A DNA stretch of 64,000 nt from Proteinivorax hydrogeniformans (GTDB lineage: Bacteria > Bacillota > Proteinivoracia > Proteinivoracales > Proteinivoracaceae). The notes beneath the pieces were generated by a model. That model was given only the letters and a program-made list of their open reading frames with translations. It did not search any database and was not told the DNA's origin. The stretch spans positions 558,001 to 622,000 of the forward strand of contig NZ_CP159485.1 of the NCBI RefSeq assembly GCF_040515995.1, read 5' to 3'. The translations under genes and the position numbers were made by a program. Shown here piece by piece: positions 13,153-64,000 of the stretch (within the stretch, counting starts at the first letter, position 1; each line of letters begins with the position of its first letter).

Positions 13153-13836
13153 ATGAGAGATAGATTTGATCCAACATGTATAAAACCACCTAAAAATGAT
13201 GAGCCTGAGATTTTAGAATGTATAATCACCACTAAGGTTTATGACGCTTGCCGCCAAACAGAATGTGAATTTTTTGCCTTTAAGCATCCAGATGTTGATT
13301 TCCCAGAGTTTGAGGAAATCGAGCACTTAGCAGGGTCTGCGGAAATAGCTCCCCCTGAAAATGGAAATGAAACACCAAGATTTACGGTTTTGAGCATTAA
13401 CTTAATCAATGGGGGACCTTTAGCTAGGGTGCGAATAGAAGTGTGTGCAGATATAAACCTTACAATTGTCAACACAAAGACACAAGCTGAAGTTACTAAT
13501 ACAGGTCTTGAAGTGTGCTTCACAAAGGATGTAGTGTTATGGCTACCTGAGCCGGAAAGAATGGAAGCAATAGCTGAATCTATTTTCCGAATAGTAGGGG
13601 AACCAATTTTTGAAGAGGTTGAAAGTACAGATGTTGAGGAAGAAGAAGTAGCAGTGTTAATACCAGTTGGCGCTTGGATCATCATTAAGTCAACGGCAGA
13701 AGTGCAACTGCTTATCCCAACATTTGGATTCTGTCCGACACCTCCAGTGTGTGAAGAATTCCCAGACCCATGTGAAGACTTTGAGCAGCTGCCGTTCCCA
13801 GAATTTTACCCACCACAGCCAGATGATGAAGACTGA
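13153..13836 (+). CDS. Cys-containing, Pro/acidic-tailed protein, possibly spore coat
   Basis: 227 residues with no signal peptide. An N-terminal CIITTKVYDACRQTECEFF motif is of the kind seen in clostridial spore-surface and SPOCS/DUF3794-like proteins. The middle is beta-rich (FTVLSINLINGGPLARVRIE...). The C-terminus holds a conserved-looking GAWIIIKSTAEVQLLIPT stretch and a Pro/Asp/Glu-rich Cys tail (CPTPPVCEEFPDPCEDFEQL). The scattered Cys and the tail fit a cross-linked coat protein, but no domain is firmly recognised. AAAGGAGGGT precedes the ATG. The stop codon lies inside the left arm of the terminator hairpin. Confidence 0.55.
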   Translation: MRDRFDPTCIKPPKNDEPEILECIITTKVYDACRQTECEFFAFKHPDVDFPEFEEIEHLAGSAEIAPPENGNETPRFTVLSINLINGGPLARVRIEVCADINLTIVNTKTQAEVTNTGLEVCFTKDVVLWLPEPERMEAIAESIFRIVGEPIFEEVESTDVEEEEVAVLIPVGAWIIIKSTAEVQLLIPTFGFCPTPPVCEEFPDPCEDFEQLPFPEFYPPQPDDED

Positions 13837-19311: not shown

Positions 19312-19775
19312 GTGCGCCCAGCATGTGCGTTAACTTGGCGGTGAAAGTCCGCTGTGGGCTTGGTAGTGGGAACCACTAGCCGAAGGCAAGGGTGTCCATC
19401 GTGAGGTGGAATCTGAAGGAAGCCTTAGGCAAAATCCCGGTCTGAGGAACACAAACCACATATAAGGCTTGCTTAGGACGGACGAGTTTGCATAACAAAA
19501 CAAAGTCCAACACTACCCGAATCCTAAAGAGTAGGACTTGACGATAATTAAATAATAGGTATTAAGAAGGTCCCTCATGTTGATAGCAGCCAACCCTTTT
19601 GGGACTACCTAACTGAGAATAGAGTGGAACTCGAAGGTAAATGTTAGGAGTGCTTAGTGAAACCTACGCTTAATACATGACAGAGTTCAATTATTTAATT
19701 ATCGAACCGCTGTGTACGGGTCCGTATGCATGGTGGTGTGAGAGGACGGCGGTTAGTCACCGCCTCCTACTCGAT
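19312..19775 (+). mobile_element. ORF-less group IIC intron
   Basis: Starts GTGCGCCCAGCATG and contains the class C core blocks GGTGTCCATCGTGAGGTGGA, ATCTGAAGGAAGC, GGTCTGAGGAACAC and GAGTTTGCATAACAAAACAA. Domain V is at 19704-19737 (GAACCGCTGTGTACGG...CCGTATGCATGGTGGT) and domain VI at about 19741-19769 with GGCGGTTAGTCACCGCC; the intron ends CTCGAT. At 464 bases it is close to the size of the catalytic core of the Oceanobacillus IIC ribozyme and has no room for a reverse transcriptase. A perfect 15-bp stem (19542-19556 with 19690-19704) lies just before domain V. Insertion directly behind an intrinsic terminator is the IIC habit. It would need a maturase in trans to move. Confidence 0.88.
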
Positions 19776-19842
19776 TGGCTATTTACTGAGTATAAAAATA
19801 CCGATAACAAAAAGTTTTTAAAAGCATAAATTGAATTAGTAA

Positions 19843-19997: not shown

Positions 19998-21128
19998 ATG
20001 AATTTACAAGGGCTCAAGCTGGGAGTTTTAATTACCAAAAAAACTTTCAGGAAGCTTGAAAATCAAACAGTTCCTCATAGAATAAACAGCTTAGCAAATG
20101 CTGGCAAGCAGATAGATATAAATTTATACTTTTTTTCAATTATCGAACTGGACATAAAATCGAAGAGCATTACTGGTTTATACTGGTCTGACAAAGATAA
20201 TTTGTGGCTAAAAAACGATTTCCCGTTACCGGACATATTGTATTTAAGAAGCACCCCAGGCAAAATGTATAAGGGGAAATTTTCTAAACTGATAAAAGAA
20301 ATTAATATTAAAAAAGGTTTAATTATAAATTATCCAGCATTTGATAAAATCGATGTTTTTAAAAAATTAAACACAGTAGAACTGGCCCAAAAGTATTTGC
20401 CAGACACTACTCCCTTTAAAAGCTTTAATACTCTCAAAATAATGCTAACTAAATATACTTGCGTGTACCTAAAAGCATCTCAAGGGAGAAAAGGACAACA
20501 AGTTATGCGCATTAAAAGGGACTGTAACTGCGGGTTTGAATATAGTTATTATCTGCAAAGTAAGATAAACGCTAAGGGGAAGATAATTAAAAGAAAGGCT
20601 GACAGCTTTGGGCAGCTAAGACTCCCCATATCAAACTTTTTTAAAAACAATTCCGTCCTAATACAAAAAGGTATCGAACTATTAGAGTTTGATGGCAGCC
20701 CTATTGATTTGAGAGCAGAGCTGCAGCGAACAAAATATGGTAAAGTTAAAATAACAGGAATTTCAGTGAGGGTGGGCAAGGTTAACTCTCCCATTACCAC
20801 TCATTTTAAAGCATATGAGTTTGGAGCATTTTTTAAAAATAAACTTAATTATTCTCAACAGAGAATAGAGCATCTAAAAACTAAAATTTATAGGTTTTTG
20901 TTTATAATATATTACTGCCTCGAATATCACTATGGGGAATATGGGGAAATTGGAATAGACTTTGCAGTTGATCATAATGACAAAATATGGTTTATAGAAT
21001 CTAACTCCCAGAGTACTAAAGTTTCCTTAGAAAGATCTCATAATAAAGAGACTTATTCAAAATCATATATTGACTTATTAGAGTATGCTGTAAATAAATA
21101 TGAAAAACATAATGAACAGCAAATATAA
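19998..21128 (+). CDS. YheC/YheD-family ATP-grasp protein (long form)
   Basis: 376 residues. The N-terminal part (about 1-110: LGVLITKKTFRKLE, then PLPDILYLRS) is the pre-ATP-grasp domain of the YheD-like forms. It is followed by the ATP-grasp core: CVYLKASQGRKGQQVMRIK (about 155), VLIQKGIELLEFDGSPIDLR (about 220-240) and GIDFAVDHNDKIWFIESNSQ with the metal-binding E-S-N (about 315-335). It is closely similar throughout to the protein encoded at 32718. It opens the surface-polymer region and is followed by a small protein kinase gene. Substrates are unknown; a role in the spore coat or cortex is inferred from the family. Confidence 0.87.
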   Translation: MNLQGLKLGVLITKKTFRKLENQTVPHRINSLANAGKQIDINLYFFSIIELDIKSKSITGLYWSDKDNLWLKNDFPLPDILYLRSTPGKMYKGKFSKLIKEINIKKGLIINYPAFDKIDVFKKLNTVELAQKYLPDTTPFKSFNTLKIMLTKYTCVYLKASQGRKGQQVMRIKRDCNCGFEYSYYLQSKINAKGKIIKRKADSFGQLRLPISNFFKNNSVLIQKGIELLEFDGSPIDLRAELQRTKYGKVKITGISVRVGKVNSPITTHFKAYEFGAFFKNKLNYSQQRIEHLKTKIYRFLFIIYYCLEYHYGEYGEIGIDFAVDHNDKIWFIESNSQSTKVSLERSHNKETYSKSYIDLLEYAVNKYEKHNEQQI

Positions 21129-21215
21129 AAGAAAGCACCTATATACTTTTCAAGTGTACAATAAGGCACAGTTGTAGAAAAGGCGTAACTTTTAAATAGG
21201 TAAGAGGTGAAAAAA

Positions 21216-21911
21216 GTGAAGGGGAAATTAGGTGATTATATAATTAACACCAACCCAATAGGTAGGGGACGTTACGCAAGTGTTTTTCGTGGCTTTGATA
21301 AATTCCACAAAAAACCAGTGGCAATAAAAGTTACTCCAAACTTAAAAAGAGCTTATAGGGAAGTCAAAGTTTTAAAGCACATAGGATATTCAAAGTACTT
21401 TCCGACTTTATACGACTTTTTTATACAAGAAAGTAAAGGGTATATTATAATGGAGTACATTGACGGAGAATGTTTAGGTGGGGAGTTTTACAGTTATGGA
21501 AAGAGGTATGAACAAAAAATAGCATTAGAAATCATAATCAATTTACTTAAGGGCCTCCATCGGATTCATGACAGGGGATACTTTCACCGGGATACCAAGC
21601 CTAAAAATATTATGATTATAGGTGATAATCCTGAAAAAATTAAAATAATTGATTTTAATGTAGCAGGAGTAATTAAAGGTACTAATTCAATTCAGAAAGA
21701 TCTTCGGTACTCTGCTGCTCTGTTCCTATATCTCACAAACGGACCTATGCACGAAAAAAATAATAAGGCGGAATTTATAATAGAGCTTGATAACTTGAAT
21801 TTTAAAAATAATGATCTTAAAACAGCTATCTTAAATGCTTACAACAAAAACCCTAATCATAGGTACAACTCAGCTATGGAGTTTGTCGATGCTCTTATAC
21901 CTTTTTGGTAA
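21216..21911 (+). CDS. Compact Ser/Thr protein kinase-like protein
   Basis: 231 residues. Kinase motifs: glycine loop IGRGRYASVF (residues 15-24), VAIKV with Lys38, hinge MEYIDGE, catalytic loop HRDTKPKNIMI, and DFN in place of DFG (IIDFNVAG). After DFN the protein is short: no standard APE-ended activation segment is visible, but NPNHRYNSAMEFVDAL resembles the last kinase helix with its conserved Arg. It is probably an active but minimal kinase. The frame is open from 21207, but AGAGGTG at 21203-21209 fits the GTG at 21216. It lies between an ATP-grasp gene and a second, convergent kinase-like gene, suggesting that phosphorylation is part of surface-layer assembly. Confidence 0.82.
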   Translation: MKGKLGDYIINTNPIGRGRYASVFRGFDKFHKKPVAIKVTPNLKRAYREVKVLKHIGYSKYFPTLYDFFIQESKGYIIMEYIDGECLGGEFYSYGKRYEQKIALEIIINLLKGLHRIHDRGYFHRDTKPKNIMIIGDNPEKIKIIDFNVAGVIKGTNSIQKDLRYSAALFLYLTNGPMHEKNNKAEFIIELDNLNFKNNDLKTAILNAYNKNPNHRYNSAMEFVDALIPFW

Positions 21912-21968
21912 AATTTTAAACAGCAACAATCATTATTATAAACTAAGCAAGCCTACTTCCCATTTTAT

Positions 21969-22016
21969 TAAAAAATAAGGAGTCACTTCGTAAACTAGAG
22001 TGACTCCTTATTTTTT
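21969..22016. terminator. Bidirectional terminator between the two kinase-like genes
   Basis: AAAAAATAAGGAGTCACT / AGTGACTCCTTATTTTTT around a 10-base loop. Confidence 0.92.
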
Positions 22017-22022
22017 AATTAT

Positions 22023-22601
22023 TTAATATGAAACCCAGTCATTATAAGTTTTAGGGTCAGCCTTTTTAACGTACTCCATAAAATCATTTAATAATCCTAA
22101 CTTCCTTAGTCCTCTAAGCAAATATGTTGGCTTTTTACTAAGCTCTTTGTAAACATTAGCATGATCTATTACTTTAAGTTTGTTATCATTTGCTATTATA
22201 AAATGTCGAACATGGACATTTGTCCGTGGAAAACCTAGACGGTCTAACTCTTTTAAACAAAACAAAATCTGTTTTGATAGATGGTTAGGTAACTCTTTTG
22301 TCTTTTTAAGGTAACTGCTTAAGCTAGGGCCTCGAATATATTCCATTACAATATAGTTTGATCCGACATCATAAAGTTTCGGCATTATAGGAGAGTCTTG
22401 GCCTGTCCGTAGCGCCTTAGCTTCATCTTTAGCTTTTTTCTGTTCTACGTATATTTTCACACATTTAGTATTACTTAATTTAAAAACTGCTCCAGTATAT
22501 CCCCTTCCTATAAACTTAAGGTTAGTAGGGTTTTCATACCTTACTTTTTTTTTGCCTGGATATACTTTGATTTTGGTAAAGTCTTGTTCCAATCTATTCA
22601 C
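22023..22601 (-). CDS. Kinase-like protein, YrzF-type, with altered catalytic loop
   Basis: 192 residues. The N-lobe is kinase-like: FIGRGYTGAVFKL (glycine loop, about 30-42), CVKIYVE with the candidate Lys, and the hinge YIVMEYIRGPSL. The catalytic loop reads NVHVRHFIIANDNKLKVIDH, so HRD has become VRH and DFG has become DHA. The DxxxxN spacing is not standard, which suggests a RIO-like or pseudokinase mechanism. It is similar in size and style to YrzF-like proteins of Bacillus. It is on the reverse strand, converging on the kinase at 21216. Nothing here shows its substrate. Confidence 0.72.
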   Translation of the reverse strand: MNRLEQDFTKIKVYPGKKKVRYENPTNLKFIGRGYTGAVFKLSNTKCVKIYVEQKKAKDEAKALRTGQDSPIMPKLYDVGSNYIVMEYIRGPSLSSYLKKTKELPNHLSKQILFCLKELDRLGFPRTNVHVRHFIIANDNKLKVIDHANVYKELSKKPTYLLRGLRKLGLLNDFMEYVKKADPKTYNDWVSY

Positions 22602-22841
22602 CTACCTTTTATGGAGGTTTTACGTAGAGGTTAGTAAAAGAAATCCTTTTTGTTACTACAACATATGTAAGTAATAAGAAAAAGTACTATCATTCCTATC
22701 TATCCCTTTTGAATGCAGGGGCAGGAATTAACTTTTCAATCAGGTATGGGCTATAACCCAATTAAGTACATTCAATAACAAGTGGTTTACATCTTCATAT
22801 ATTAAAGAAAGTCTATAGTTGAAATGGAGGTGTTTTATTTA

Positions 22842-23609
22842 ATGAAAGCTGTTATTTTATGTGGCGGAAAAGGTATGCGTATGGGCGGTGAAGTAAGTTA
22901 TACTTGCAAGCCTTTGATTAAAGTAGGAGGCATGCCAATTCTATGGCATATCATGAAAATATATAAATCTTACGGGATAAATGAGTTTGTCCTTTGTTTA
23001 GGGCATAATGGCGATGCCATCAAGGAATATTTCCTAAACTTAGACTGGAAAACTAATGATTTTCAATTAAAAATCGGTAGTAACTATAAAGAGATAAAAA
23101 TTTTAAAAAACCGGGAAGAATGGAATATTACTTTTGCTGATACTGGCCTAGATACTATGACCGGTGGCAGAATCAAAAGAATAAAAAAGTATATATCTGA
23201 TGATGAATTTATGTTAACTTACGGCGATGGCGTTTCAGATATTCCGTTAGATAAACTTTTGAATTTCCATCGTCAAAACAGGAAAATTGCCACTGTAACA
23301 GGGGTTAAGCAAAAGTCAGGCTTTGGTTTTTTAGAGGCGGAAGGTGACGTTGTTAAAAGCTTTATCGAAAAACCCCTCCTTAATGGGTGGGTAAACGGTG
23401 GATTTTTTGTTCTTAATCGAGAGGTATTTGATTTTATCGAAGGTGACAAAACCGTTTGGGAACAGCAGCCCCTAAAAAAGTTAGTTCAGGAAAATCAACT
23501 AGCTATGTACCAGCATGATGGTTTTTGGCACTGTATGGATACTGTAAAAGATGTTCATAGCTTAAACGAGCTTTGGAATAAAAACGATAAAGCTTGGGTA
23601 AGGTGGTAA
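22842..23609 (+). CDS. rfbF: Glucose-1-phosphate cytidylyltransferase-like nucleotidyltransferase
   Basis: 255 residues. It transfers a nucleotide, CMP in the RfbF family, to a sugar-1-phosphate to give an activated sugar. Motifs: the N-terminal signature AVILCGGKGMRMGGEV, KPLIKVGGMPILWHIM, the RfbF-typical TGLDTMTGGRIKRI, catalytic Asp in YGDGVSD, and EKP then GGFFVL. GGAGGTG at 22827-22833 supports the ATG at 22842, not the one at 22824. In Gram-negatives RfbF leads to CDP-dideoxysugars with RfbG; no clear RfbG (CDP-glucose 4,6-dehydratase) is here, though an SDR enzyme follows directly. It heads the sugar-nucleotide operon. Confidence 0.88.
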   Translation: MKAVILCGGKGMRMGGEVSYTCKPLIKVGGMPILWHIMKIYKSYGINEFVLCLGHNGDAIKEYFLNLDWKTNDFQLKIGSNYKEIKILKNREEWNITFADTGLDTMTGGRIKRIKKYISDDEFMLTYGDGVSDIPLDKLLNFHRQNRKIATVTGVKQKSGFGFLEAEGDVVKSFIEKPLLNGWVNGGFFVLNREVFDFIEGDKTVWEQQPLKKLVQENQLAMYQHDGFWHCMDTVKDVHSLNELWNKNDKAWVRW

Positions 23610-23631
23610 TCTTTTTAGGAGGTGATATGTT

Positions 23632-24597
23632 ATGGTCAGTAGTTTTAAAAACAAAAGAGTGTTAATAACAGGGGCAAGTGGATTTATAGGATCACATATG
23701 GTAAGAAGAATGGTAAAGGAAGGGGCCAAGGTATTTATACTAGCTAGGCAAGATTCTGATTTATGGAGAATTTCCTATTTAAAAGACTCTGTTGAAGTTT
23801 ATACCTGTGATATTCGTAATGCATTACAGGTGGATATTTGTATCAATAAAATTAAACCAGACTATGTTTTTCATATGGCAGCTTATGGTGTTGATTCTAG
23901 GCAAAAGGACTACCTTGTTGCAGCTTATACAAATATTATAGGTACAGTGAATCTTTTAAACTCTTTAAAAGCTGTGGGTTGTACTAAATTTTTAAACGCT
24001 GGCACCTGCATGGAGTATGGTGACAAAGACAAGCCGATAAAGGAGTATGAACCATTAGAGCCATTAAACATCTATGGCAGCACCAAAGCCTCTGCTGGCA
24101 TCTTAGCCCACCAGATTGCTGCAGAAAATAACATCGACATCGTTACTCTCCGGGCCTTTGGAATTTTTGGCGAAGCAGAAGGGAGCCATAAATTTTTCCC
24201 TCATATAATACTATCAATATTAAATGGCAAAGATGTCGAACTAACGTCTTGTGAACAGTATCGTGATTACTGCTATATTGATAACATCATAGATGGATTT
24301 GTGTTAGCTGCCTTAAATAATGAAGCAAAAAATGAAATCTTCAATATTGGTAGCGGAAATATTAGCCCCCTTAAAGACTATGTCAATTTGATATTTAGTC
24401 ATATGGGTGCTAAAACAGAGCCAGCCTTTGGAGTTGTCCCACATCGCTCTAGGGATGTATGGAGACCGCAACCAGACATCACTAAAATTCAAACTAAGCT
24501 AAAGTGGGAACCTAAAGTTAGCCTTGAAGATGGTTTAGCGATCACAATTAATTGGTTTAAGCAAAACAAAGCAAAATACGAAGATGCAGGGAGATGA
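23632..24597 (+). CDS. NAD-dependent sugar-nucleotide epimerase/dehydratase (SDR)
   Basis: 321 residues, extended SDR fold. The NAD motif is GASGFIGSHM (about 14-23). The active-site pair is Y-x-x-x-K in IYGSTKAS (about 143-150), with AGTCMEYG supplying the Thr/Ser region. The C-terminal substrate-binding part has RDYCYIDNIIDGF. It is closest in pattern to CDP- or GDP-sugar-modifying SDRs found beside RfbF-type transferases, so it may act on the product of the preceding gene. Substrate and product cannot be told from sequence. Its stop overlaps the next start (ATGA), which shows tight coupling. Confidence 0.85.
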   Translation: MVSSFKNKRVLITGASGFIGSHMVRRMVKEGAKVFILARQDSDLWRISYLKDSVEVYTCDIRNALQVDICINKIKPDYVFHMAAYGVDSRQKDYLVAAYTNIIGTVNLLNSLKAVGCTKFLNAGTCMEYGDKDKPIKEYEPLEPLNIYGSTKASAGILAHQIAAENNIDIVTLRAFGIFGEAEGSHKFFPHIILSILNGKDVELTSCEQYRDYCYIDNIIDGFVLAALNNEAKNEIFNIGSGNISPLKDYVNLIFSHMGAKTEPAFGVVPHRSRDVWRPQPDITKIQTKLKWEPKVSLEDGLAITINWFKQNKAKYEDAGR

Positions 24598-25673
24598 AAA
24601 CGTTGAAAGTAAATCATATCGTCCAAGAGGACCTAGAAAAAATTTATAATGACATTAAAGGTTTGTTAGATGGCGTAGAAGGAAGTACTTGGCTTATCAG
24701 CGGCGGGGCCGGTTTTTTAGGTAGCTACTTTTTAGATCTGCTTAATTATTGTAATGAAAACGTCTTTAGTAGGCCATGTAAAGTTTATTGTGTTGAAAAT
24801 TTTGCTTCCTCAACTCCTGAAAGAATCAAGCACCTAGAAAATAATAAAGACATTGAAATTATAAACCAAGATATTACAAAGCCTTTTAATTACTCCTTAA
24901 GTAATAACATTGATTATATAGTCCATGCTGCAAATATAGCCTCACCTACCTTTTACAGAAAGCATCCCATTGAAACAATAGAGGCTAACGTAGTAGGGCT
25001 GAAAAACTTATTAGATTTAGGGATTAAAAATAACCTCAAAAGCTTTTTGTTTTTTTCTACAAGCGAGATTTACGGAGATCCTACACCTGAAAACATCCCA
25101 ACACCAGAACACTATAATGGAAATGTATCATGTACCGGTCCAAGAGCTTGCTATGACGAATCAAAAAGACTTGGGGAAACGCTGGCAATAAATTATTACC
25201 GTCAGCACTTACTACCAGTAAAAATAGTAAGGCCTTTTAACGTCTATGGTCCCGGTCTTAGATTAGAAGATAAAAGAGTTATCCCAGATTTTTGTAAAGA
25301 TGCATTAACTGAACAAAAGATATCTATATTGAGTGATGGCACACCTTCAAGAAGTTTTTGTTATGTTAGCGATGCCATTGCAGGCTTTCTGAAAGTGCTA
25401 CTTTCAGACTATAATGGCGAGCCTTTTAATATCGGAAATGATAAGTTAGAACTTAACATGATTAGTCTAGCTAATAAAATTTCTGAAGTAGTTGGTAATG
25501 TAGAACTGATTTATAATAAAAGTGAAGATGGGGATTACCTGATTGATAACCCCCAAAGACGGTGCCCGGATTTAACAAAGGCTAAAAACTTGTTGGGCTA
25601 TCAACCAAGGGTAGATCTAAAAGAAGGATTAGACAGAACGATTAGATGGTACAAAGAGATCTACAACCTGTAA
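24594..25673 (+). CDS. UDP-glucuronate decarboxylase-like SDR (UDP-xylose synthase type)
   Basis: 359 residues. SDR family; the NAD motif is GGAGFLGSYF at about residue 37, and the extra N-terminal 30 residues are normal for bacterial forms. Features typical of UDP-glucuronate decarboxylases: HAANIASPTFYRKHPIETI, STSEIYGDP, an active-site Y-x-x-x-K in CYDESKRLGETL, and VKIVRPFNVYGPG. UDP-glucose dehydrogenase is the next gene, so UDP-glucose to UDP-glucuronate to UDP-xylose is a coherent two-step route, though the gene order is reversed. Specificity for decarboxylation rather than epimerisation is inferred. Confidence 0.82.
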   Translation: MKTLKVNHIVQEDLEKIYNDIKGLLDGVEGSTWLISGGAGFLGSYFLDLLNYCNENVFSRPCKVYCVENFASSTPERIKHLENNKDIEIINQDITKPFNYSLSNNIDYIVHAANIASPTFYRKHPIETIEANVVGLKNLLDLGIKNNLKSFLFFSTSEIYGDPTPENIPTPEHYNGNVSCTGPRACYDESKRLGETLAINYYRQHLLPVKIVRPFNVYGPGLRLEDKRVIPDFCKDALTEQKISILSDGTPSRSFCYVSDAIAGFLKVLLSDYNGEPFNIGNDKLELNMISLANKISEVVGNVELIYNKSEDGDYLIDNPQRRCPDLTKAKNLLGYQPRVDLKEGLDRTIRWYKEIYNL

Positions 25674-25686
25674 GGAGTTGAAAGTT

Positions 25687-27048
25687 ATGAAAATTACTGT
25701 AGTGGGTACAGGTTATGTGGGCCTTGTTACTGGGGTGTGCCTGGCATATAAAGGGCACCATGTGATTTGTATCGATAAAAAGAAGGATATAGTTGAAAAA
25801 ATCAACAATATGGAAGTGCCAATTTACGAACCAGGTTTAGATAAGCTTTTAAAAGAAGTAATAGCTTCAGGTAGGTTAAAGGCGGCTACAGAACTTGGCA
25901 AATCTGTAGCAGAGTCAGAAGTATCCATTATAGCAGTAGGCACCCCTTTTAAAGGAGATGAGATTGACTTAACATATATTAAAGCTGCTACAAAGGAAAT
26001 TGGAACCGCCTTAAAAGAAAGGGATAAATATCACGTAGTATGTGTTAAAAGCACAGTAATACCAACAACTACAGACACACTAGTTAAGAACTATCTTGAA
26101 GATAGCTCCGGTAAAAAACTTGGTGAAGATATTGGATTGGCTATGAATCCTGAATTTTTAAGAGAGGGAAAGGCTATGGAAGATTTTATGAATCCAGACA
26201 GGATAGTAATCGGTGCTTATGATAAAAATAGCTTTTCTATTATGGAAAAAGTATATAAAGATTATTTTAAAGCTCCCATCATTAGGTGCAACCTAAGGAC
26301 TGCAGAAATGATTAAATACACTGCTAATGCCCTTTTAGCAACCTTAATATCTTACTCAAATGAAGTTGCCACCATATGTGAAAAAACAGGAGAGATTGAT
26401 GTTAAAGAGGTGCTAGAAGGAGTTGTCTTAGATAAAAGGTTTAACCCTAGAGTTAATGGCAAGTTAGTAAATCCTGAAATGAACAAATATCTTCAAGCCG
26501 GTTGTGGGTTTGGAGGAAGTTGCTTTCCAAAGGATGTAAAAGCTCTCATCTCGTATAGCATAGCAAAAGAGCATATTCCCCGTATCATAGACTCCACTAT
26601 TGAAGTAAATAAAGAGCAACCATTACGGATTATAAGTCGACTCGAGGATAGTGTTGGTACTTTAGAAGGCAAGAAAGTTGCCGTGTTAGGTCTGGCTTTT
26701 AAGCCTGAAACAGACGATGTTAGAGAATCTCCAAGTATTGCAATAATAAAAGAATTATTAGAAAAAAAGGCAAGGGTTCACGGAGTGGATCCTAAAGCAA
26801 TGGATAATATGAAGAAGATAATTCCTCCCGATAATTCATTAACCTATAGTACAGAATACAAATCTGCTTTAGAAGATGCCGATGCCGTTATCTTGGTTAC
26901 CTCGTGGCCTGATTTTGTACAAATACCGCCTGAAGATTTTATAAGGTTAATGAAAAAGCCGTTAGTTGTAGATGGTAGAAGGGTATTTGACAAAGCAAGA
27001 CTAAAAGCAAAGGGGATCCGCTATATAGGAGTAGGGTTAGCCTACTAG
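25687..27048 (+). CDS. UDP-glucose 6-dehydrogenase
   Basis: 453 residues. It oxidises UDP-glucose to UDP-glucuronate with two NAD+. Motifs: GTGYVGLVTGVCLAYKGH (NAD fold, residues 7-24), NPEFLREGKAMEDF, KYTANALLATLISYSNE, the catalytic Cys in GCGFGGSCFPKDV (about 255-275), and the C-terminal GLAFKPETDDVRESPS. AAGGAG at 25672-25677 fits the ATG at 25687; the frame is open from 25678. It supplies UDP-glucuronate to the SDR encoded just upstream. Length and motifs are complete. Confidence 0.95.
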   Translation: MKITVVGTGYVGLVTGVCLAYKGHHVICIDKKKDIVEKINNMEVPIYEPGLDKLLKEVIASGRLKAATELGKSVAESEVSIIAVGTPFKGDEIDLTYIKAATKEIGTALKERDKYHVVCVKSTVIPTTTDTLVKNYLEDSSGKKLGEDIGLAMNPEFLREGKAMEDFMNPDRIVIGAYDKNSFSIMEKVYKDYFKAPIIRCNLRTAEMIKYTANALLATLISYSNEVATICEKTGEIDVKEVLEGVVLDKRFNPRVNGKLVNPEMNKYLQAGCGFGGSCFPKDVKALISYSIAKEHIPRIIDSTIEVNKEQPLRIISRLEDSVGTLEGKKVAVLGLAFKPETDDVRESPSIAIIKELLEKKARVHGVDPKAMDNMKKIIPPDNSLTYSTEYKSALEDADAVILVTSWPDFVQIPPEDFIRLMKKPLVVDGRRVFDKARLKAKGIRYIGVGLAY

Positions 27049-27067
27049 TTTTAAAGGAGGTGTATAT

Positions 27068-27472
27068 ATGAAAACACCTTGGGAGATTTACACTATTAAG
27101 CCTTTTAAAGATTGTCGAGGTAGTTTGAAAAAAGTTATAATGAAAAGTCAAATTGCAAATGAAGAAGAACTTGAGGAAGCTTATTTATTATATAGCAACA
27201 GCAAAAGTATAAGGGGAAACCATTATCATAAGAAAACTATTGAGTACTTTACCGTTGTAAGTGGCACAGCAAAATTTGTACTAAAGGACCTAAAAACAGG
27301 TGTTGTCGAAGAGGTAGAAGTTTCGGAAAGTGACAATTTGGTGCTAAAAATCCCTCCTTATGTTGTTCATGCCTTTAGAAATGAGAAGGAAAAAACATTA
27401 GTAATCCTTGCAATTTCCACTAGGGAGTATCGTAAAGGAGATACGGACTCTTATGAACAGAAAATTTTATAA
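27068..27472 (+). CDS. Cupin sugar-nucleotide isomerase-like (FdtA/WxcM-type)
   Basis: 134 residues, a single-domain cupin. The motif RGNHYHKKTIEYFTVVSG (about residues 50-67) and PYVVHAFRN (about 97-105) are those of the WxcM/FdtA group, which includes dTDP-4-keto-6-deoxyglucose 3,4-ketoisomerases and epimerase-like proteins. GGAGGTG immediately before the ATG fits. Its 3' end overlaps the next gene by 20 bases. The dTDP-sugar enzymes that would feed a classic FdtA are not in the window, so the substrate may be a CDP- or UDP-linked sugar from the genes just upstream. Confidence 0.8.
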   Translation: MKTPWEIYTIKPFKDCRGSLKKVIMKSQIANEEELEEAYLLYSNSKSIRGNHYHKKTIEYFTVVSGTAKFVLKDLKTGVVEEVEVSESDNLVLKIPPYVVHAFRNEKEKTLVILAISTREYRKGDTDSYEQKIL

Positions 27473-28403
27473 AAATAATCACCCAAATCTTTGCACCATA
27501 TTGACAAAAGATTATTTAGTTAAAGGGTTAGCATTATATCATTCCCTAAAAAAACACACCAAAGACTTTCATTTATGGGTTTTATGTGTAGATGAAGTAT
27601 CCTATGACATTTTGGAGCACATGGAGCTTAAAAATGTTACGTTAGTTAAGTTAAAGAATCTACAGACTCCTAAGTTAAAACAGTTGCAAAAAACTAGAAA
27701 GTTAAATGAGTTTTGCTGGACTTTAAAGGCACCTTTTATCCTGTATCTCATAAAAAACAACTACAACCTTGATTCAATAATGTATATTGATGCCGATTTA
27801 TTTTTCTTTGACGATATTAAACAGTTATACAAAGAGTGGGGGCAATCTTCAATACTCTTAACAAAACTATGGTTATCCCCTGCTTGGAATAGAAGGGTGG
27901 GCAGGTATCAAGCAGGCCTAATCGGCTTTAAAAGAGATGCAAACGCCTTTAAATGTCTTAATTGGTGGAACAAAAAGTGTTTAGAATGGTGTTTTGATAT
28001 AAAAGAAAAGAAACGCTGGGCAGATCAGAAATATTTAGATAAATGGCCCGCTTTAGTGTCAGATATTAAAATAATAAAAAGCTTGGGTATTAACTCAGGG
28101 CCTTGGAATGTAAGACGTTTTCCAATCCGCGTAAAAGGGGATGTAATTTACTGTAAAAGTAATAAATTAATTGCTTACCATTACAGTGGATTTGATATAT
28201 TTAACGAAGGGGAGTTTGAACTTTGCAATAGAAAAAAACTTCCTCGTAAAGCTATAAAACACATCTATGGTCCCTATGCCGAGGAAATTAGTAAAGTAAT
28301 TAAACTTCTTAAGTCCAAAGATAAAGAGTACTCATATGGCTTTTCTAGCAAACATCAGGATAAGAAGCTTTATAATTATTACTGTTTAGAAAGCAATGAT
28401 TAA
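27453..28403 (+). CDS. GT8-like glycosyltransferase
   Basis: 316 residues. N-terminal TILTKDYLVKGLALYHSLKK and IDADLFFFDDI (D-x-D at about residue 110) are the donor-binding features of GT8-type/nucleotide-diphosphosugar transferases. QAGLIGFKRD, WADQKYLDKW and IAYHYSGF complete the family pattern. The ATG at 27453 follows AAAGGAG at 27434-27440 at rather long spacing, and overlaps the cupin gene. The C-terminal half of the next protein (28524) is a close relative, so the gene has been duplicated. It is a cytoplasmic protein without membrane segments, acting on an unknown acceptor. Confidence 0.83.
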   Translation: MNRKFYKNNHPNLCTILTKDYLVKGLALYHSLKKHTKDFHLWVLCVDEVSYDILEHMELKNVTLVKLKNLQTPKLKQLQKTRKLNEFCWTLKAPFILYLIKNNYNLDSIMYIDADLFFFDDIKQLYKEWGQSSILLTKLWLSPAWNRRVGRYQAGLIGFKRDANAFKCLNWWNKKCLEWCFDIKEKKRWADQKYLDKWPALVSDIKIIKSLGINSGPWNVRRFPIRVKGDVIYCKSNKLIAYHYSGFDIFNEGEFELCNRKKLPRKAIKHIYGPYAEEISKVIKLLKSKDKEYSYGFSSKHQDKKLYNYYCLESND

Positions 28404-28414
28404 TATTAAAAACT

Positions 28415-28454
28415 AAAACCTCCCCTTGAGAAAACTCTCAAAGGGAGGTTTTTA
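28415..28454 (+). terminator. Terminator inside the glycosyltransferase cluster
   Basis: AAAACCTCCC / GGGAGGTTTTT stem. It separates the sugar-nucleotide operon from the tandem glycosyltransferase gene. Confidence 0.88.
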
Positions 28455-28523
28455 TGTTTGTAACCGGCAGGACTGTAGCAACATATACTATTTATAGTAA
28501 ATAACATGGAAGGAGCGTTACTA

Positions 28524-30323
28524 GTGAAGCACTATTACTGTACAACGCTTAGCAAAGATTACTTGTACAAAGGTCTACTACTTTATAAATCATTGGAGAA
28601 AGTGGATGATAATTTCCACTTTTACTTTGTTTGTCTTCATGAAGAAACTAAAGAACTACTTTCTAAAATGCACCTTAAAAACGCTACCATCATACCCATA
28701 TCAGATATAGAGGCGGAAGATAGCCAGCTATTACAAGTAAAGGAAAGCCGAAATGATAAAGAGTACATCTGGACCTCTAAAGCATCCGCTATGTTGTATA
28801 TATTGCGAAACTTTAAGGGCACAGATCATATCGTATGGTTAGATGGTGACACTTACTTTTTTTCTGACCCTGCCCCTATTTACAAAGAATGGGGAAACTA
28901 TTCGATTATGCTAACTAAGGAAAGGTGGCGTAAAAGAGATAAAATAAGGGAAAACCAGATCGGAATTTACAACACTGGTTTTATGGGATTTAGGCGAGAC
29001 AGGCATGGCCTAAAGGCTCTTAATTGGTTTAGAAATAAACTTATCATGTGGTGTTATGACAAAAACAAATTTAAAATCGGCCCTTGGAGCGACCAGGTTT
29101 ATGTAAATGATTGGCCTGACAGATTTCAAAATGTAGGTGTTATAAAAAATATAGGGGTTAACTTAAATCCCTATATAGTGCAAGGGTGCAAAATTTCTAA
29201 AGATAAAGACCATCTCTACGTTAACGATACAAAATTAATTTTTTACCATTACTATGGGTTTAAATATTATGATGGTAACGAATTTGATTTATGTGGCTAT
29301 GCCCCAAACCTTAAAGATAATGTTTTAAAACTAATATACCTACCATATATCAATGCAGTTAATGATATTACAAAGTTTATAAAAAGTGTGGATTCTAACT
29401 TTTTCAAACTCAAAAATCCAAAAGAGTACTATATTAGTCGATACTTTAATCTTACACAAAATCAGAGAGCCAAAGCTAATCATCCCAACCTTTGTGCTAT
29501 TGTAACGAAAGACTTCGTAGTTAGAGTAGTGACTATGTATAACTCTCTTAAAACCTATACCAAAAGTTTTCATTTATGGATTTTGTGTGTCGACGATATT
29601 TCTTATAAAGCTCTAGAAAAAATGAACCTTGATCACGTCACATTAATTACCTTAAAAAATATTGGCACTAAGAAATTAAAAAAGCTTGAAAAAACTAGAA
29701 AGCTAAATGAATTTTGCTGGACTTTAAAGGCACCCTTCATCCGCTTTTTAATAAGAAACAACTTTAACATAGATTCAATAATATACCTAGATTCAGATAT
29801 ATTCTTCTTTAAAGATATTAAATCCATCTATGAAGACTGGGGCAGTAAATCAATTTTGATAACAAAGCACTCAGAGCCCAAGGTTGAGAAAAAATACGGA
29901 GAGTTTCAAGCTGGCCTTATAGGTTTTAAGAGAAATAAGACAGGGCTTAGATGTCTTAGATGGTGGCAAAAGAAATGTTTTAAGTGGTGTTATGACAACT
30001 TTGATGATAAAAGACAGTGGGCTGATCAGAAGTATTTAGAACAATGGCCACGAAAATTCCAAAATGTAAGGATAGCCCAAAATAAAGGAATAAACGCCGG
30101 TGAATGGAATGTTCGGTCTTTAACTATAGAAGTTAAAGACAGGAGTGTTTATATAGACGGCGATGAGTTAATTGCATATCACTTCAGCGGTGTTCCTGCA
30201 AATGATGAGAAACGTGAGTTATTAAAAAGAAGAGAAACCTCTAAGAAAGTAAAAAAATACATTTATAAAATATATATTGAGGAACTAAAAAAAACTGCTA
30301 AAAAGCTAGGCGTTAACAATTAA
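28524..30323 (+). CDS. Two-domain GT8-like glycosyltransferase (tandem fusion)
   Basis: 599 residues made of two homologous transferase domains. Domain 1 (about 1-300): TTLSKDYLYKGLLLYKSLEK, D-x-D in WLDGDTYFFSD, TGFMGFRRD, WSDQVYVNDW, IFYHYYGF. Domain 2 (about 318-599): AIVTKDFVVRVVTMYNSLK, YLDSDIFFFKDI, QAGLIGFKRN, WADQKYLEQW, IAYHFSGV. Domain 2 is much nearer to the protein encoded at 27453 than to domain 1. Both D-x-D motifs are intact, so it could add two sugars in turn, like a small polymerase. The GTG at 28524 follows GGAAGGAG at 28508-28515; the frame is open from 28506. Confidence 0.83.
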   Translation: MKHYYCTTLSKDYLYKGLLLYKSLEKVDDNFHFYFVCLHEETKELLSKMHLKNATIIPISDIEAEDSQLLQVKESRNDKEYIWTSKASAMLYILRNFKGTDHIVWLDGDTYFFSDPAPIYKEWGNYSIMLTKERWRKRDKIRENQIGIYNTGFMGFRRDRHGLKALNWFRNKLIMWCYDKNKFKIGPWSDQVYVNDWPDRFQNVGVIKNIGVNLNPYIVQGCKISKDKDHLYVNDTKLIFYHYYGFKYYDGNEFDLCGYAPNLKDNVLKLIYLPYINAVNDITKFIKSVDSNFFKLKNPKEYYISRYFNLTQNQRAKANHPNLCAIVTKDFVVRVVTMYNSLKTYTKSFHLWILCVDDISYKALEKMNLDHVTLITLKNIGTKKLKKLEKTRKLNEFCWTLKAPFIRFLIRNNFNIDSIIYLDSDIFFFKDIKSIYEDWGSKSILITKHSEPKVEKKYGEFQAGLIGFKRNKTGLRCLRWWQKKCFKWCYDNFDDKRQWADQKYLEQWPRKFQNVRIAQNKGINAGEWNVRSLTIEVKDRSVYIDGDELIAYHFSGVPANDEKRELLKRRETSKKVKKYIYKIYIEELKKTAKKLGVNN

Positions 30324-30357
30324 CATCCACTCCCTACCTTATTAAGCTTTATAGGAG

Positions 30358-31113
30358 GTGGTAGCGCTGTCTACCCATAGACCCTTTAGAAACAAGATGA
30401 TAGTCAATTATGCTCTTTTAAAAGACCCGCTGACTCAGCAGCATACCCCCAAAACAGTATGGTTTAACAGTGAGAATTTAAAGAAGATGTTAGATGCGTA
30501 TGACTCAGTCTATATCAAACCAAATAAGGGGAAAAAAGGTAAGGGAATTATTAGGGTAAAAGCCTTTAATTCAGGATATGAAATATCCTGCGATAAAGTA
30601 AAAAAAATAGTATCTAAAAATGAACTCAAGTTGGAGCTTAAAAAGTTGATTTCTAACCCTGCAAAATATCTAGTTCAACAGGGGATTGATTTAGCAACCT
30701 TTAAAGAGCGTCCCTTTGATTTGCGTATTTTAATGCAAAAACCATATAAATCTTGGCAGGTAAGTCATACAGGAGCTAAGGTAGCTTTAGATAAAGATGC
30801 TGCAGTGACTAATCGTTCACAGGGAGCTGAAATTTTTCCCCTTCAAAAAGTGCTGTCAAGTTATGACCAAAAAACAGATTCCATGGCAACTATGAGAGAA
30901 ATAATAGATTTATCTCATCGAACTTGTTATACACTAGGGGACCACTTTCCTATTAGAGTTATTGGGCTAGATATTGCTGTGGATAAACAAGGTAAACTAT
31001 GGTTAATTGAAGCTAACACTCTCAACCCAGCTAGTAATTTTGAAAAAGTTAGCGATAAAATTTCTCAAGATAAGTTTGCAAAAGCAAAGAAGGTAATAAA
31101 GGGATCACTTTAA
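30358..31113 (+). CDS. YheC/YheD-family ATP-grasp protein (short form, tandem copy 1)
   Basis: About 250 residues. ATP-grasp core: VYIKPNKGKKGKGIIRVK, YLVQQGIDLATFKERPFDLR, and IGLDIAVDKQGKLWLIEANT with the metal-binding E-A-N. It is the first of three tandem paralogues, followed by a long form. The start is odd: AGGAGGTG is directly followed by GTAGCGCTG. The position of the GTG start of the next paralogue corresponds to CTG at 30367 here; the annotated GTG at 30358 lies within the ribosome-binding site. Translation may begin at CTG. Substrate is unknown. Confidence 0.83.
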   Translation: MVALSTHRPFRNKMIVNYALLKDPLTQQHTPKTVWFNSENLKKMLDAYDSVYIKPNKGKKGKGIIRVKAFNSGYEISCDKVKKIVSKNELKLELKKLISNPAKYLVQQGIDLATFKERPFDLRILMQKPYKSWQVSHTGAKVALDKDAAVTNRSQGAEIFPLQKVLSSYDQKTDSMATMREIIDLSHRTCYTLGDHFPIRVIGLDIAVDKQGKLWLIEANTLNPASNFEKVSDKISQDKFAKAKKVIKGSL

Positions 31114-31141
31114 ACTGAGCACAGATTAAGGAGGTGTAAGA

Positions 31142-31885
31142 GTGAGCACTCACAAACCATTTAGAGACAAAATGAAAGTTATGACAACTCTCTCCCATGA
31201 TCCTAATATAAAAAACCACTTACCGGAAACAAAGTGGTTTAGACAAGATAACTTAGTAAAAATGTTAGATAAGTATAAAGCTGCCTATATTAAACCAAAC
31301 AAAGGAAAGCAAGGACGAAGTATAGTCCGTGTAAAAAACACTAAAGATGGCCATGAGATTTCAAGCGGAAGTGACAGAATTAACATTCCTAGTGAAAGTC
31401 TAAAGTCCGAACTAAAAAAAACAATGTCTGATTCTATAAAGTATGTAGTGCAACAAGGGATAGATCTAGCAACGTATAAAGGACGTCCTTTTGATATGCG
31501 CATTGTAGCCCAAAAACCATATAATTTTTGGCAAATAAGCTTAACAGGGGCGAAAGTGGCAACATTTAAGGAGGCTGCAGTGACAAATTTAACTAAGGGA
31601 TCAAAGGCTTATGCACTGCAAGAAATATTGTGTAATTATGACCAGCGACAAGATCCTATGGCAACACTTAGAGAGATAATAGATTTATCACACCAAATTT
31701 CCTATATCTTAGGAGAACATTTCCCTCTAAGAATAATCGGGTTAGATATAGCCGTTGATAAAAAAGGAAAGTTATGGTTTATCGAGGCAAATACACAGCC
31801 TATAAACTCAATTATAAAAGTCAATGATGTGGAGTCTCAAAAGAAATATCTGAATGCTAAGCAAATAATTAAAGACTCCCTTTAA
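31142..31885 (+). CDS. YheC/YheD-family ATP-grasp protein (short form, tandem copy 2)
   Basis: 247 residues, GTG start behind AAGGAGGTG. Motifs in order: AYIKPNKGKQGRSIVRVK (about 45), YVVQQGIDLATYKGRPFDMR (about 105-125) and IGLDIAVDKKGKLWFIEANT (about 205-225). The N-terminal STHKPFRDKMKVMTTLSHD is shared with the flanking copies (HRPFRNKM, HKPIRDKM) and may be a specificity segment of this subgroup. It is 28 bases from its neighbours on both sides or less, so one transcript is likely. The residue between metal-binding Glu and the C-terminus differs most among copies. Confidence 0.85.
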   Translation: MSTHKPFRDKMKVMTTLSHDPNIKNHLPETKWFRQDNLVKMLDKYKAAYIKPNKGKQGRSIVRVKNTKDGHEISSGSDRINIPSESLKSELKKTMSDSIKYVVQQGIDLATYKGRPFDMRIVAQKPYNFWQISLTGAKVATFKEAAVTNLTKGSKAYALQEILCNYDQRQDPMATLREIIDLSHQISYILGEHFPLRIIGLDIAVDKKGKLWFIEANTQPINSIIKVNDVESQKKYLNAKQIIKDSL

Positions 31886-31913
31886 CGTAAATCTCTGTAA
31901 AGGAGGTGTGTTT

Positions 31914-32666
31914 TTGAAATCCCACAAGCCTATACGTGACAAGATGAAGAGAATTGCGGTACTTTCCAAGGACCCTATTTTAAAAAATCACATTCCCGAT
32001 ACAAACTGGTTTAGTCATGAAAACCTTAAACAAATGCTAGATAGCTACAAAACCATTTATATAAAGCCCAACAAAGGAAATAGCGGCAATAAAATTATAA
32101 GAATAAAAAGTGTTGAAGGTAGGTATGAAGTCTCTTTCGGTGGCACTAGGCAGTTAGCTTCTATGGACACTCTCAAAATGGAGCTAGACATAATATGCTC
32201 AACTAGAAAATATTTCATTCAGGAAGGGATAGATCTAGCCACCTTCAAAGGTCGCCCCTTTGATATGCGTGTAGTAATGCAAAAACCATATAACTCGTGG
32301 CAGCTAACACTAACATCGGCTAAGGTAGCAACCAAAAAAAATGCAGCGGTAACTAACGTATCTAAGGGCGCTGAGGATTTTTTATTACAAAAAATACTGT
32401 GTAATTATGATCAAAAAAAAGATCCCATGGCTACCTTTAGAGAAATAGTTGATATAGCACATCAGATTTCTTACAGTCTATCTAATAAGTTTCCTCTCAG
32501 AATTATTGGCTTAGATTTGGCTATTGATAAAAACAATAAGGTTTGGTTTATAGAAGCTAACACTGTTCCCCTTTGTAAGCAGTGTAAAAAGGTAAATGAT
32601 AAATCATCTCAAAGGAAATACGTTAAGGCTAAAAAAGTAATACGAGAATCTTTGGAAACCTTTTAA
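31914..32666 (+). CDS. YheC/YheD-family ATP-grasp protein (short form, tandem copy 3)
   Basis: About 250 residues. The TTG at 31914 follows AGGAGGTG and aligns with the starts of the other copies; a GTG at 31908 is in frame but overlaps the ribosome-binding site. Motifs: IYIKPNKGNSGNKIIRIK, YFIQEGIDLATFKGRPFDMR, and IGLDLAIDKNNKVWFIEANT. In the glycine loop GKKGKG of copy 1 has become GNSGNK, which may alter nucleotide handling. The C-terminus adds a CKQCKK pair of Cys not present in the other copies. Confidence 0.85.
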   Translation: MKSHKPIRDKMKRIAVLSKDPILKNHIPDTNWFSHENLKQMLDSYKTIYIKPNKGNSGNKIIRIKSVEGRYEVSFGGTRQLASMDTLKMELDIICSTRKYFIQEGIDLATFKGRPFDMRVVMQKPYNSWQLTLTSAKVATKKNAAVTNVSKGAEDFLLQKILCNYDQKKDPMATFREIVDIAHQISYSLSNKFPLRIIGLDLAIDKNNKVWFIEANTVPLCKQCKKVNDKSSQRKYVKAKKVIRESLETF

Positions 32667-32717
32667 TGTTTTAATCATAGCTTTTGACTAGACTTGTCTT
32701 AGAAAGGAGGCTTTGAC

Positions 32718-33851
32718 TTGCAAAGAAAAAATACCAGGCCGGTAATGGCAGTTTTAATAAGCAGAAAAACCATGAACAAGTTAGAAAAGGGAAATGCCCA
32801 CTACCGTTTAGAATATCTTGCTAGGGCTAATAAATATGTAAATATTGATTTATGTTTTTGTTCAATCAACGGAATTAACATGGAAAATCATAAGATTATT
32901 GGCATGAGCTTGAGTAATGAAAAAGGTAAATGGGAAGAAAAGCATATTCCTTTTCCAGATGTTTTATATATGAGAGGTGGAGTTGGCGCCAAAAACAAAG
33001 GAAAGTTTGGAAAATTTATTGAGTATCTTAAAAAAGAAAACTGTATTTTATTAAACTATCCTAATTTTAATAAACTAGATACCTTCAATAAGTTAAACTC
33101 TGAACCTACAACCAAGAGATATTTACCTGATACAATACATTATACTGGGCCAAAAGATTTAGAGAAGATGCTAGCTTTATACGATACTGTATATCTAAAA
33201 GCCCATGTAGGTAGAAAGGGTAAAAACGTCTTGAAGGTGAAAAAGACTTCTTTATTTGGATATCAGCTTAGCTACTATCGCTACAACAGTAAGAAAAAAA
33301 GAGGTTTACTGGTAAGCAGAAATTATGAAAATATTAAAGCTCTAGTACAGCCGCTATACCGATTTTTTAAAGATAAGCCTTTTATTATCCAAGCTGGTAT
33401 TGATCTAATTGAGTTTAATGATAGAAAGGTTGATATGAGGGCAGAGATTCAGAGAAATAAATATGGAGAAGTAGAATTATTCGCCATCTCAGCAAGACTA
33501 GGCAGCCCAAGAGCACCGATAACAACTCACTCCAATGCACATGAGTTTGAGACCTTTTTGCATAAACAACTTAACTTCTCCCAAGGAAGAGTAGAAAAGC
33601 TTAAAAAGAACGTTGAAAACTTTTTACGCAACGTTCATAAAGTTGTAGAAAAGCACTATGGAACCTATGCAGAACTTGGAATAGACTTTGCCATTGATAA
33701 AAATGATAGAATATGGTTTATAGAGTGTAACTCTCAGTCCACTAAGGTTTCTGTAGAAAAAGCCTTTAGTAAAGAAAAATACAACCAATCATTTATAAAT
33801 GTGCTAGAATATGCTAAATACAGATTTGAAAAGGAAAAGCCCACTAGTTAA
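32718..33851 (+). CDS. YheC/YheD-family ATP-grasp protein (long form)
   Basis: 377 residues, TTG start behind AAAGGAGG at 32703-32710. The N-terminal domain (AVLISRKTMNKLEKGNAHYR, then PFPDVLYMRGG) and the ATP-grasp core (VYLKAHVGRKGKNVLKVK, FIIQAGIDLIEFNDRKVDMR, GIDFAIDKNDRIWFIECNSQ) match the protein at 19998 over the full length, including THSNAHEFETFLHKQLNFSQ against THFKAYEFGAFFKNKLNYSQ. The two long copies bracket the cluster. The three short copies immediately upstream suggest that several related ligation steps, or several acceptor lengths, are handled. Confidence 0.87.
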   Translation: MQRKNTRPVMAVLISRKTMNKLEKGNAHYRLEYLARANKYVNIDLCFCSINGINMENHKIIGMSLSNEKGKWEEKHIPFPDVLYMRGGVGAKNKGKFGKFIEYLKKENCILLNYPNFNKLDTFNKLNSEPTTKRYLPDTIHYTGPKDLEKMLALYDTVYLKAHVGRKGKNVLKVKKTSLFGYQLSYYRYNSKKKRGLLVSRNYENIKALVQPLYRFFKDKPFIIQAGIDLIEFNDRKVDMRAEIQRNKYGEVELFAISARLGSPRAPITTHSNAHEFETFLHKQLNFSQGRVEKLKKNVENFLRNVHKVVEKHYGTYAELGIDFAIDKNDRIWFIECNSQSTKVSVEKAFSKEKYNQSFINVLEYAKYRFEKEKPTS

Positions 33852-62407: not shown

Positions 62408-62550
62408 ATTACTTGTCGCTGAAACACGGCGGCAAACAAATTAGGTCTTTGAAAATTGAACAGCTAATGCAAAAGCCAGTAAGGTTTAAAGTTAATTTCT
62501 TTTTTATTATTTAAGTAAGTTGAGCTAAATTTTAGCTTTTCATAAACTAT

Positions 62551-64000
<1,450 letters not shown>

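Follow-up and report, generated by a model that had tools for sequence, protein, structure and literature searches.

Between positions 19998 and 33851 of a 64,000-nucleotide window of the Proteinivorax hydrogeniformans genome (contig NZ_CP159485.1, positions 558,001 to 622,000; coordinates below refer to this window), five genes for YheC/YheD-type (YheC/D) ATP-grasp proteins, two long and three short in tandem, are interspersed with nucleotide-sugar, glycosyltransferase (GT) and kinase-like genes. An initial annotation read this block as one system making a spore or surface glycopolymer, which raises the question of which of its genes belong together and for what purpose. All the genes listed there are intact open reading frames (ORFs), whose families were confirmed by Pfam and NCBIfam. 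Judged by its gene content and by its relatives, the block is a composite of a sugar/GT core, an ATP-grasp addition and accessory kinases. The explanation that we favour, with a probability of roughly 0.4, is that of a glycan cassette gained by lateral transfer and most likely serving the spore surface, in which a glycan of uronic acid and pentose would be joined or decorated by ligases resembling TTL.

The core comprises six genes encoding RfbF, an extended short-chain dehydrogenase/reductase (SDR1), a second SDR of the UDP-xylose synthase (UXS) type (SDR2), the UDP-glucose dehydrogenase Ugd, a cupin and a tandem GT8 (Table 1). These six genes occur together in 12 more Bacillota genomes, arranged in no fewer than four orders, one copy being broken. 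The order of the window recurs in UBA5509, UBA5496 (where the GT8 fusion is interrupted) and AS09scLD_363, with a short YheC/D gene directly after the fusion, and also in genome G058, with a YheC/D gene about 3 kb upstream of the module. The order rfbF-SDR2-Ugd-GT8-SDR1-cupin is that of Bacillus sp. HNG, Halalkalibacter nanhaiisediminis, two Gottfriedia, Fredinandcohnia onubensis and Bacillus sp. AFS001701, while the GT8 comes first in G061. Genome G192 carries two tandem GT8 fusions, SDR1, Ugd and SDR2, together with a divergent pair formed by rfbF and an RmlC-like gene that replaces the cupin; its YheC/D gene is convergent with the GT8 fusion, about 50 bp away. Remnants of the module, with the fusion reduced to a fragment, persist in G006. 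That the sugar and GT genes stay together in 12 other genomes, under several arrangements, makes their association more than chance. The Bacillaceae copies of RfbF, UXS and Ugd are only 39-48% identical to those of the window, against 57-62% for SDR1 and the cupin; the combination has thus been retained although three of its parts have strongly diverged. The module is rare: among 398 genomes sampled evenly across the phylum, only a handful had a strong full-length or split GT8 fusion. A 172-aa AAA/kinase-like gene (PF13238 and PF13671, with a weak Zeta_toxin match) heads the module, upstream of rfbF, in every one of the six Bacillaceae copies (loci L066-L070 and L073).

The surroundings of the block show that it was inserted. 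In the congener G001, the flanking genes, encoding a solute-binding protein (SBP) and a major facilitator superfamily (MFS) protein, lie about 140 bp apart without the block, and the outer genes follow in the same order; because this same site lacks the block in the congener, synteny makes the whole block an insertion between the SBP and MFS genes. At the left edge of the block, a group II intron immediately follows the terminator of the SBP gene. The genes of the window are closer to those of G058, which belongs to another family and class (53-75% identity), than to those of UBA5509 from the same class (48-62%); combined with the insertion, this argues for lateral transfer of the cassette. 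Such a history suggests that spore-surface chemistry can travel between spore-formers as a block. The guanine-plus-cytosine (GC) content, 32-37% inside the block versus 34-40% around it, was not decisive. Two further copies of the intron are present in the genome, at about 2370.6-2371.3 and 2784.4-2784.8 kb, each match being gapped.

Table 1. Features of the block and of its surroundings (window coordinates).
Feature	Position	Strand	Evidence or remark
sATPg0, sixth YheC/D ATP-grasp, short	10970-11752	-	outside block
Group II intron, ORF-less	19312-19776	+	Rfam RF02001 at 19395-19567, 102.7 bits; edges read by eye
lATPg1, long YheC/D ATP-grasp, 376 aa	19998-21128	+	PF14398, 212 bits
Kinase 1, Hanks-type protein kinase, 234 aa, accessory	21207-21911	+	PF00069, 90 bits
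Kinase 2, kinase-like, 192 aa, accessory	22023-22601	-	weak ABC1/Bud32-type matches only
Sigma-K-like site AC-N16-CATATATTA before rfbF	22778-22804	+	at -46 of rfbF; weak statistics
RfbF, glucose-1-phosphate cytidylyltransferase	22842-23609 (ORF opens at 22824)	+	TIGR02623, 314.8 bits (cut-off 300.25)
SDR1, extended SDR	23632-24597	+	[ST]CMEYG instead of the 4,6-dehydratase TDE motif
SDR2, UDP-glucuronate decarboxylase (UXS) type	24594-25673	+	best PDB match human UXS1, E 3e-58
Ugd, UDP-glucose 6-dehydrogenase	25678-27048	+	TIGR03026, 436 bits; catalytic GGSCFPKD
Small cupin, sugar-nucleotide epimerase/isomerase type	27068-27472	+	profile: Cap5F C-terminal cupin 1e-6, QdtA 6e-6
Single GT8	27408-28403 (start probably 27450)	+	copy of C-terminal half of fusion
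Sigma-K-like site AC-N17-CATATACTA before GT8 fusion	28463-28490	+	at -43 of fusion
Two-domain GT8 fusion	28506-30323	+	PF01501, two stretches, 53 bits
sATPg1, short YheC/D ATP-grasp	30358-31113	+	PF14398, 175 bits; model pLDDT 82
sATPg2, short YheC/D ATP-grasp	31142-31885	+	PF14398, 178 bits
sATPg3, short YheC/D ATP-grasp	31908-32666	+	PF14398, 174 bits
lATPg2, long YheC/D ATP-grasp, 377 aa	32718-33851	+	PF14398, 222 bits

A profile search with PF14398 over the entire 2.83-Mb genome returned six matches, every one inside the window, with scores of 174-222 bits against a curated cut-off of 26.8 bits. All six proteins retain the active-site residues of ATP-grasps as invariant positions (K54, D205, E218 and N220 in the alignment); a genome scan with all six brought up no conserved stretch. 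In a tree of 64 sequences, duplicates included, a single clade (support 1.0) unites the three tandem short copies of the window with the short copies behind the fusion of the UBA5509 group, and the two long forms are sisters (0.976). While sATPg2 and sATPg3 are 55-57% identical to sATPg1, sATPg0 is only 28% identical to it and falls in a clade of its own, with orthologues in G001, G002, G003 and G004, where the neighbouring gene (9933-10931 in the window) lies alongside. By synteny and tree, sATPg0 is therefore an older, separate locus of the family and was ruled out as part of the cassette, so that a six-gene ATP-grasp set acting as one, as first proposed, is not supported. The genes of the window share with Bacillus subtilis YheC/YheD the PF14398 family, the tandem arrangement and the long forms, but add short forms that lack the N-terminal part and measure about 250 aa, as well as the adjoining glycan module.

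The best Foldseek matches of a short ATP-grasp model, with a predicted local distance difference test (pLDDT) score of 82, were TTL, D-Ala ligases, LysX/ArgX and TTLL6, at template-modelling (TM) scores of 0.45-0.59. These matches are carboxylate-amine ligases or their near kin, and by fold the short YheC/D proteins are probably amide-type ligases as well, in agreement with the initial proposal that a glycan-assembly set is linked here to ATP-grasps of an amide-forming fold. In three other lineages a YheC/D gene adjoins the module or is found about 3 kb away at most, in one of them straight after the GT8 fusion; those near the modules of G192 and G058 are longer forms. Comparison of the loci indicates that the ligases have joined the sugar module repeatedly without being an obligatory part of it. 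Linkage in relatives, on which the initial annotation had made its case depend, thus holds for the sugar and GT genes in 12 genomes, and for the ATP-grasp genes in some lineages only. YheC/YheD are widespread in spore-formers, and a distinct YheC/D clade behind a tandem GT provides a concrete substrate hypothesis. An ATP-grasp of the Pyl/UDP-Yelosamine system of Bacillus cereus reportedly joins an acid to a nucleotide sugar, and is said to depend on a 4-amino sugar and on an aminotransferase; the window cassette encodes no aminotransferase.

The sugar donors can be approached from motifs read in an alignment of 12 module sequences. The true start of RfbF is probably 22842 rather than 22824, because it is the conserved one in an alignment of starts. 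SDR1 is probably of the epimerase or 4-ketoreductase type, since [ST]CMEYG is found in 12 of 12 sequences and the TDE/SDK-type motif of 4,6-dehydratases is not there. SDR2, closest to UXS, displays the active-site motif GPRACYDE[SA]KR in 11 of the 12 module copies and also keeps [TS]SE[IV]YG, which places it with the UDP-xylose synthases. Given an SDR2 of the UXS type and a Ugd with its catalytic Cys, glucuronate and xylose donors would be the simplest products of this pair. RfbF scores as a glucose-1-phosphate cytidylyltransferase in the window and as a clear member of TIGR02623 in the Bacillaceae (417 bits); its retention, despite only 39-48% identity of the Bacillaceae RfbF, Ugd and SDR2 to those of the window, argues that the module needs a cytidine diphosphate (CDP)-sugar. 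With donor-sugar enzymes that can be named, the cassette is small enough for reconstitution in the test tube.

On the explanation that we favour, Ugd and SDR2 would deliver nucleotide-linked glucuronate and xylose (or the 4-keto form of the latter), while RfbF, the cupin (as a C3/C5 epimerase) and SDR1 (as a 4-reductase or epimerase) would provide a further sugar, possibly CDP-linked. The two GT8 domains would then each transfer a different sugar, one after the other, so that an acidic glycan is built or capped in the mother cell. A carboxylate, belonging either to the uronic acid or to an acidic coat protein, would be activated by the YheC/D ligases to an acyl phosphate and coupled to an amine, so that the glycan would be decorated or fixed to the spore envelope. 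Several points weigh against this scheme. The module encodes no 4,6-dehydratase that would account for a CDP-deoxysugar. The modules of the Bacillaceae and of G061 have no YheC/D gene beside them, and the ligases are thus not required for the sugar chemistry. Any acceptor, amino acid and substrate specificity of the YheC/D proteins is putative, and their carboxylate-amine ligase activity is predicted from the fold. The window holds 16 sigma-K-like promoter sites, which is not above the shuffled expectation of 12 +/- 3.5. Co-occurrence with SpoIVA, tried as evidence for a spore role, was rejected as uninformative: the gene was found in 12 of 13 tested genomes and in 11 of the 12 carrying the module or a remnant, at a base rate of 83%.

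The strongest competitor, which we consider somewhat unlikely, is that two separate spore-envelope systems, the sugar module and the YheC/D array, have come to lie side by side, the ATP-grasp proteins being coat components like YheC/YheD with no action on the glycan. This would fit the YheC/D arrays that exist without the sugar module (in genomes with 13 matches, G054, and 10 matches, G033) and the modules that exist without YheC/D: among five Bacillaceae carriers searched, YheC/D genes lie away from the module in four and are absent from the fifth (Halalkalibacter). It fits less well with the short copies behind the tandem GT8, which in two lineages constitute a separate clade, or with G192 and G058, which independently show YheC/D genes close to the module; by our own estimate, chance placement beside the module has a probability of about 0.001-0.008 per lineage at 2-7 YheC/D genes per genome.

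The same enzymes might also be wired differently, as one linear CDP-sugar route in which RfbF makes CDP-glucose, Ugd oxidizes it, the UXS-type SDR converts the product to a CDP-4-keto-pentose, the cupin epimerizes and SDR1 reduces. We see this as rather unlikely, and as a variant of the favoured explanation that does not exclude it. The co-occurrence of the five enzymes (with RmlC replacing the cupin in G192), the lack of a 4,6-dehydratase in every module copy, the resemblance of cupin plus SDR1 to a split Cap5F (epimerase and 4-reductase, from profile matches and family knowledge) and the retention of RfbF even in the strongly diverged copy would all be accommodated. Yet the Ugd and UXS families normally take uridine diphosphate (UDP) sugars, Ugd and SDR2 score as ordinary members of them, and an rmlB-like dehydratase is present elsewhere in the genome.

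Is the cassette a spore system? In B. subtilis, yheC and yheD belong to the sigma-E regulon, with stimulation by SpoIIID, and sigma-K and GerE control yfnHGF (PMC517825); YheD makes a shell around the forespore or spore, its function not being known (PMC7911427). The yfnHGFED and ytdA-ytcABC genes shape the spore crust, and the structure of the B. subtilis spore glycans is still unknown (PMC7439481, PMC11708026). Like the window, both of these mother-cell-expressed systems start with an RfbF-type gene and have an SDR, a UDP-glucose dehydrogenase (ytcA) and GTs. They differ from it in that the window module has UXS, a cupin and SDR1 in place of CDP-glucose 4,6-dehydratase, a single fused two-domain GT8, and ATP-grasp genes inside; without the 4,6-dehydratase it is not a member of the yfn type (RfbF, CDP-glucose 4,6-dehydratase and GTs), and may by analogy work like one. 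The initial annotation did not recognize the combination as a described pathway, which holds only in part: YheC/YheD, yfnHGFED and ytdA-ytcABC already are described, their chemistry is not, and the cassette differs from the described spore-glycan gene sets, though it is of a known type. Sets of five genes, encoding RfbF, a protein of the CDP-glucose 4,6-dehydratase type, a GT, a GT2 and a GT, which we take to be like yfnHGFED, occur in G147 and G315 (L097 9547-14365 and L098 7684-12465), their GTs being 28-32% identical to the GT8 of the window.

The host encodes SpoIVA and SpoIIP. Sigma-K-like sites precede two cassette genes (Table 1) and also the genes at 10970 and 13153; they stand before 4 of 18 candidate genes versus 1 of 39 others (p = 0.03, for a set chosen post hoc), so that their placement, unlike their number, is suggestive. 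Upstream of the operon, the Gottfriedia, Bacillus sp. and Fredinandcohnia copies share a conserved ACGCATAnTCT-like stretch. Because of the kinship with YheC/D and yfn-type systems and of the sigma-K-like sites, whose statistics are weak, the spore-surface role put forward by the initial annotation stays plausible. We find it unlikely that the block is instead a vegetative capsule or wall polysaccharide operon, in which the ATP-grasps would yield a teichuronopeptide-like copolymer. Ugd and sugar genes are, from family knowledge, commonplace in capsule operons, and other ATP-grasp families have been linked to teichuronopeptide and O-antigen synthesis (PMC4431377). Against this, neither the block nor the other module copies showed a flippase, polymerase, lipid-carrier transferase or ABC exporter, the genome has further sugar-nucleotide genes at 1.29-1.34 Mb, and the B. 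subtilis kin of YheC/D are mother-cell genes (PMC517825).

Both GT8 genes first described were found, the single one outside the six-gene core; with 53% identity to the C-terminal half of the fusion and 37% to the N-terminal half, it is a duplicate of the former. In the fusion, assigned to GT8 by PF01501, both DxD motifs, D113/D115 (DGD) and D429/D431 (D[SA]D), are invariant in eight proteins from eight genomes; full-length relatives are 47-53% identical. Its model, built on eight sequences, is weak (pLDDT 67), with LARGE1 (E 2e-9, TM 0.3) and LH3 as best Foldseek matches. Like the matriglycan polymerase LARGE1, it has tandem GT-A domains, as indicated by the two PF01501 stretches and by this top fold match, and the window encodes likely makers of the LARGE donors, UDP-glucuronate and UDP-xylose (PMC12514197). 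Both halves of the window protein are GT8-like, however, and a profile search of the PDB with the tandem GT8 did not list LARGE among its matches. The second domain of LARGE belongs to GT49. The LARGE1 match thus serves as a lead only; quite improbable, in our view, is the fuller proposal of a bacterial LARGE counterpart polymerizing xylose and glucuronate in alternation, supplied by its own Ugd and UXS, the glucuronate being amidated by the short YheC/D ligases to give an amino-acid-decorated, matriglycan-like spore coat polymer. Searching viral contigs with the single GT8 revealed no relative, and a plasmid tblastn brought up only proteobacterial GTs at 27-32% identity.

Least convincing is a graspetide cluster, a type of ribosomally synthesized and post-translationally modified peptide system, which would explain the tandem ATP-grasp ligases and the presence of PsnB among their structural matches but is very improbable, as no precursor peptide that would be credible is encoded in the gaps of the block, where the ORFs, 15-33 aa long, are attributable to chance, and as the sugar genes would be left unexplained.

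Two kinase-like genes do exist, as initially annotated, the second on the minus strand, but neither is kept with the module elsewhere, and they were ruled out as regulators or members of the system. Kinase 2 is possibly a pseudokinase, because its similarity is of the ABC1/Bud32 type only and its sequence has no recognizable HRD; no relative was found within its class, and homologues were detected in just three other relatives, distant and in no case beside the module. Neither kinase type is present at the other module loci inspected, which speaks against the control by phosphorylation that had been envisaged. The bacterial spore kinase genes cotS and ytaA sit with cotSA, ytcC, ytcA-B and ytdA in a spore locus (PMC2860764), and the window is similar in placing kinase-like proteins next to GT and nucleotide-sugar genes. 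Its kinases, however, match PF00069 and, weakly, ABC1 instead of the APH-type domain of CotS/YtaA.

Large YheC/D arrays were observed in other Bacillota, at G054:C3:96810-113733 (L059), in G033 (L060) and on G017:C42, some copies being broken by stops. A family without Pfam or NCBIfam match occurs near YheC/D genes in several lineages, with one copy in the window (13153-13836, plus strand) and others in L052 (11267-11974), L053 (6367-7068 and 8157-8834), L064 (14102-14761, immediately upstream of two long YheC/D genes) and L014 (419-1021). Five copies share a conserved acidic tail, CEEF...PFPDFYPPQPEDE, and the family is a candidate partner or acceptor of the YheC/D ligases. At the far end of the window, a 16S rRNA gene begins within 62550-64000, where the GC content rises.

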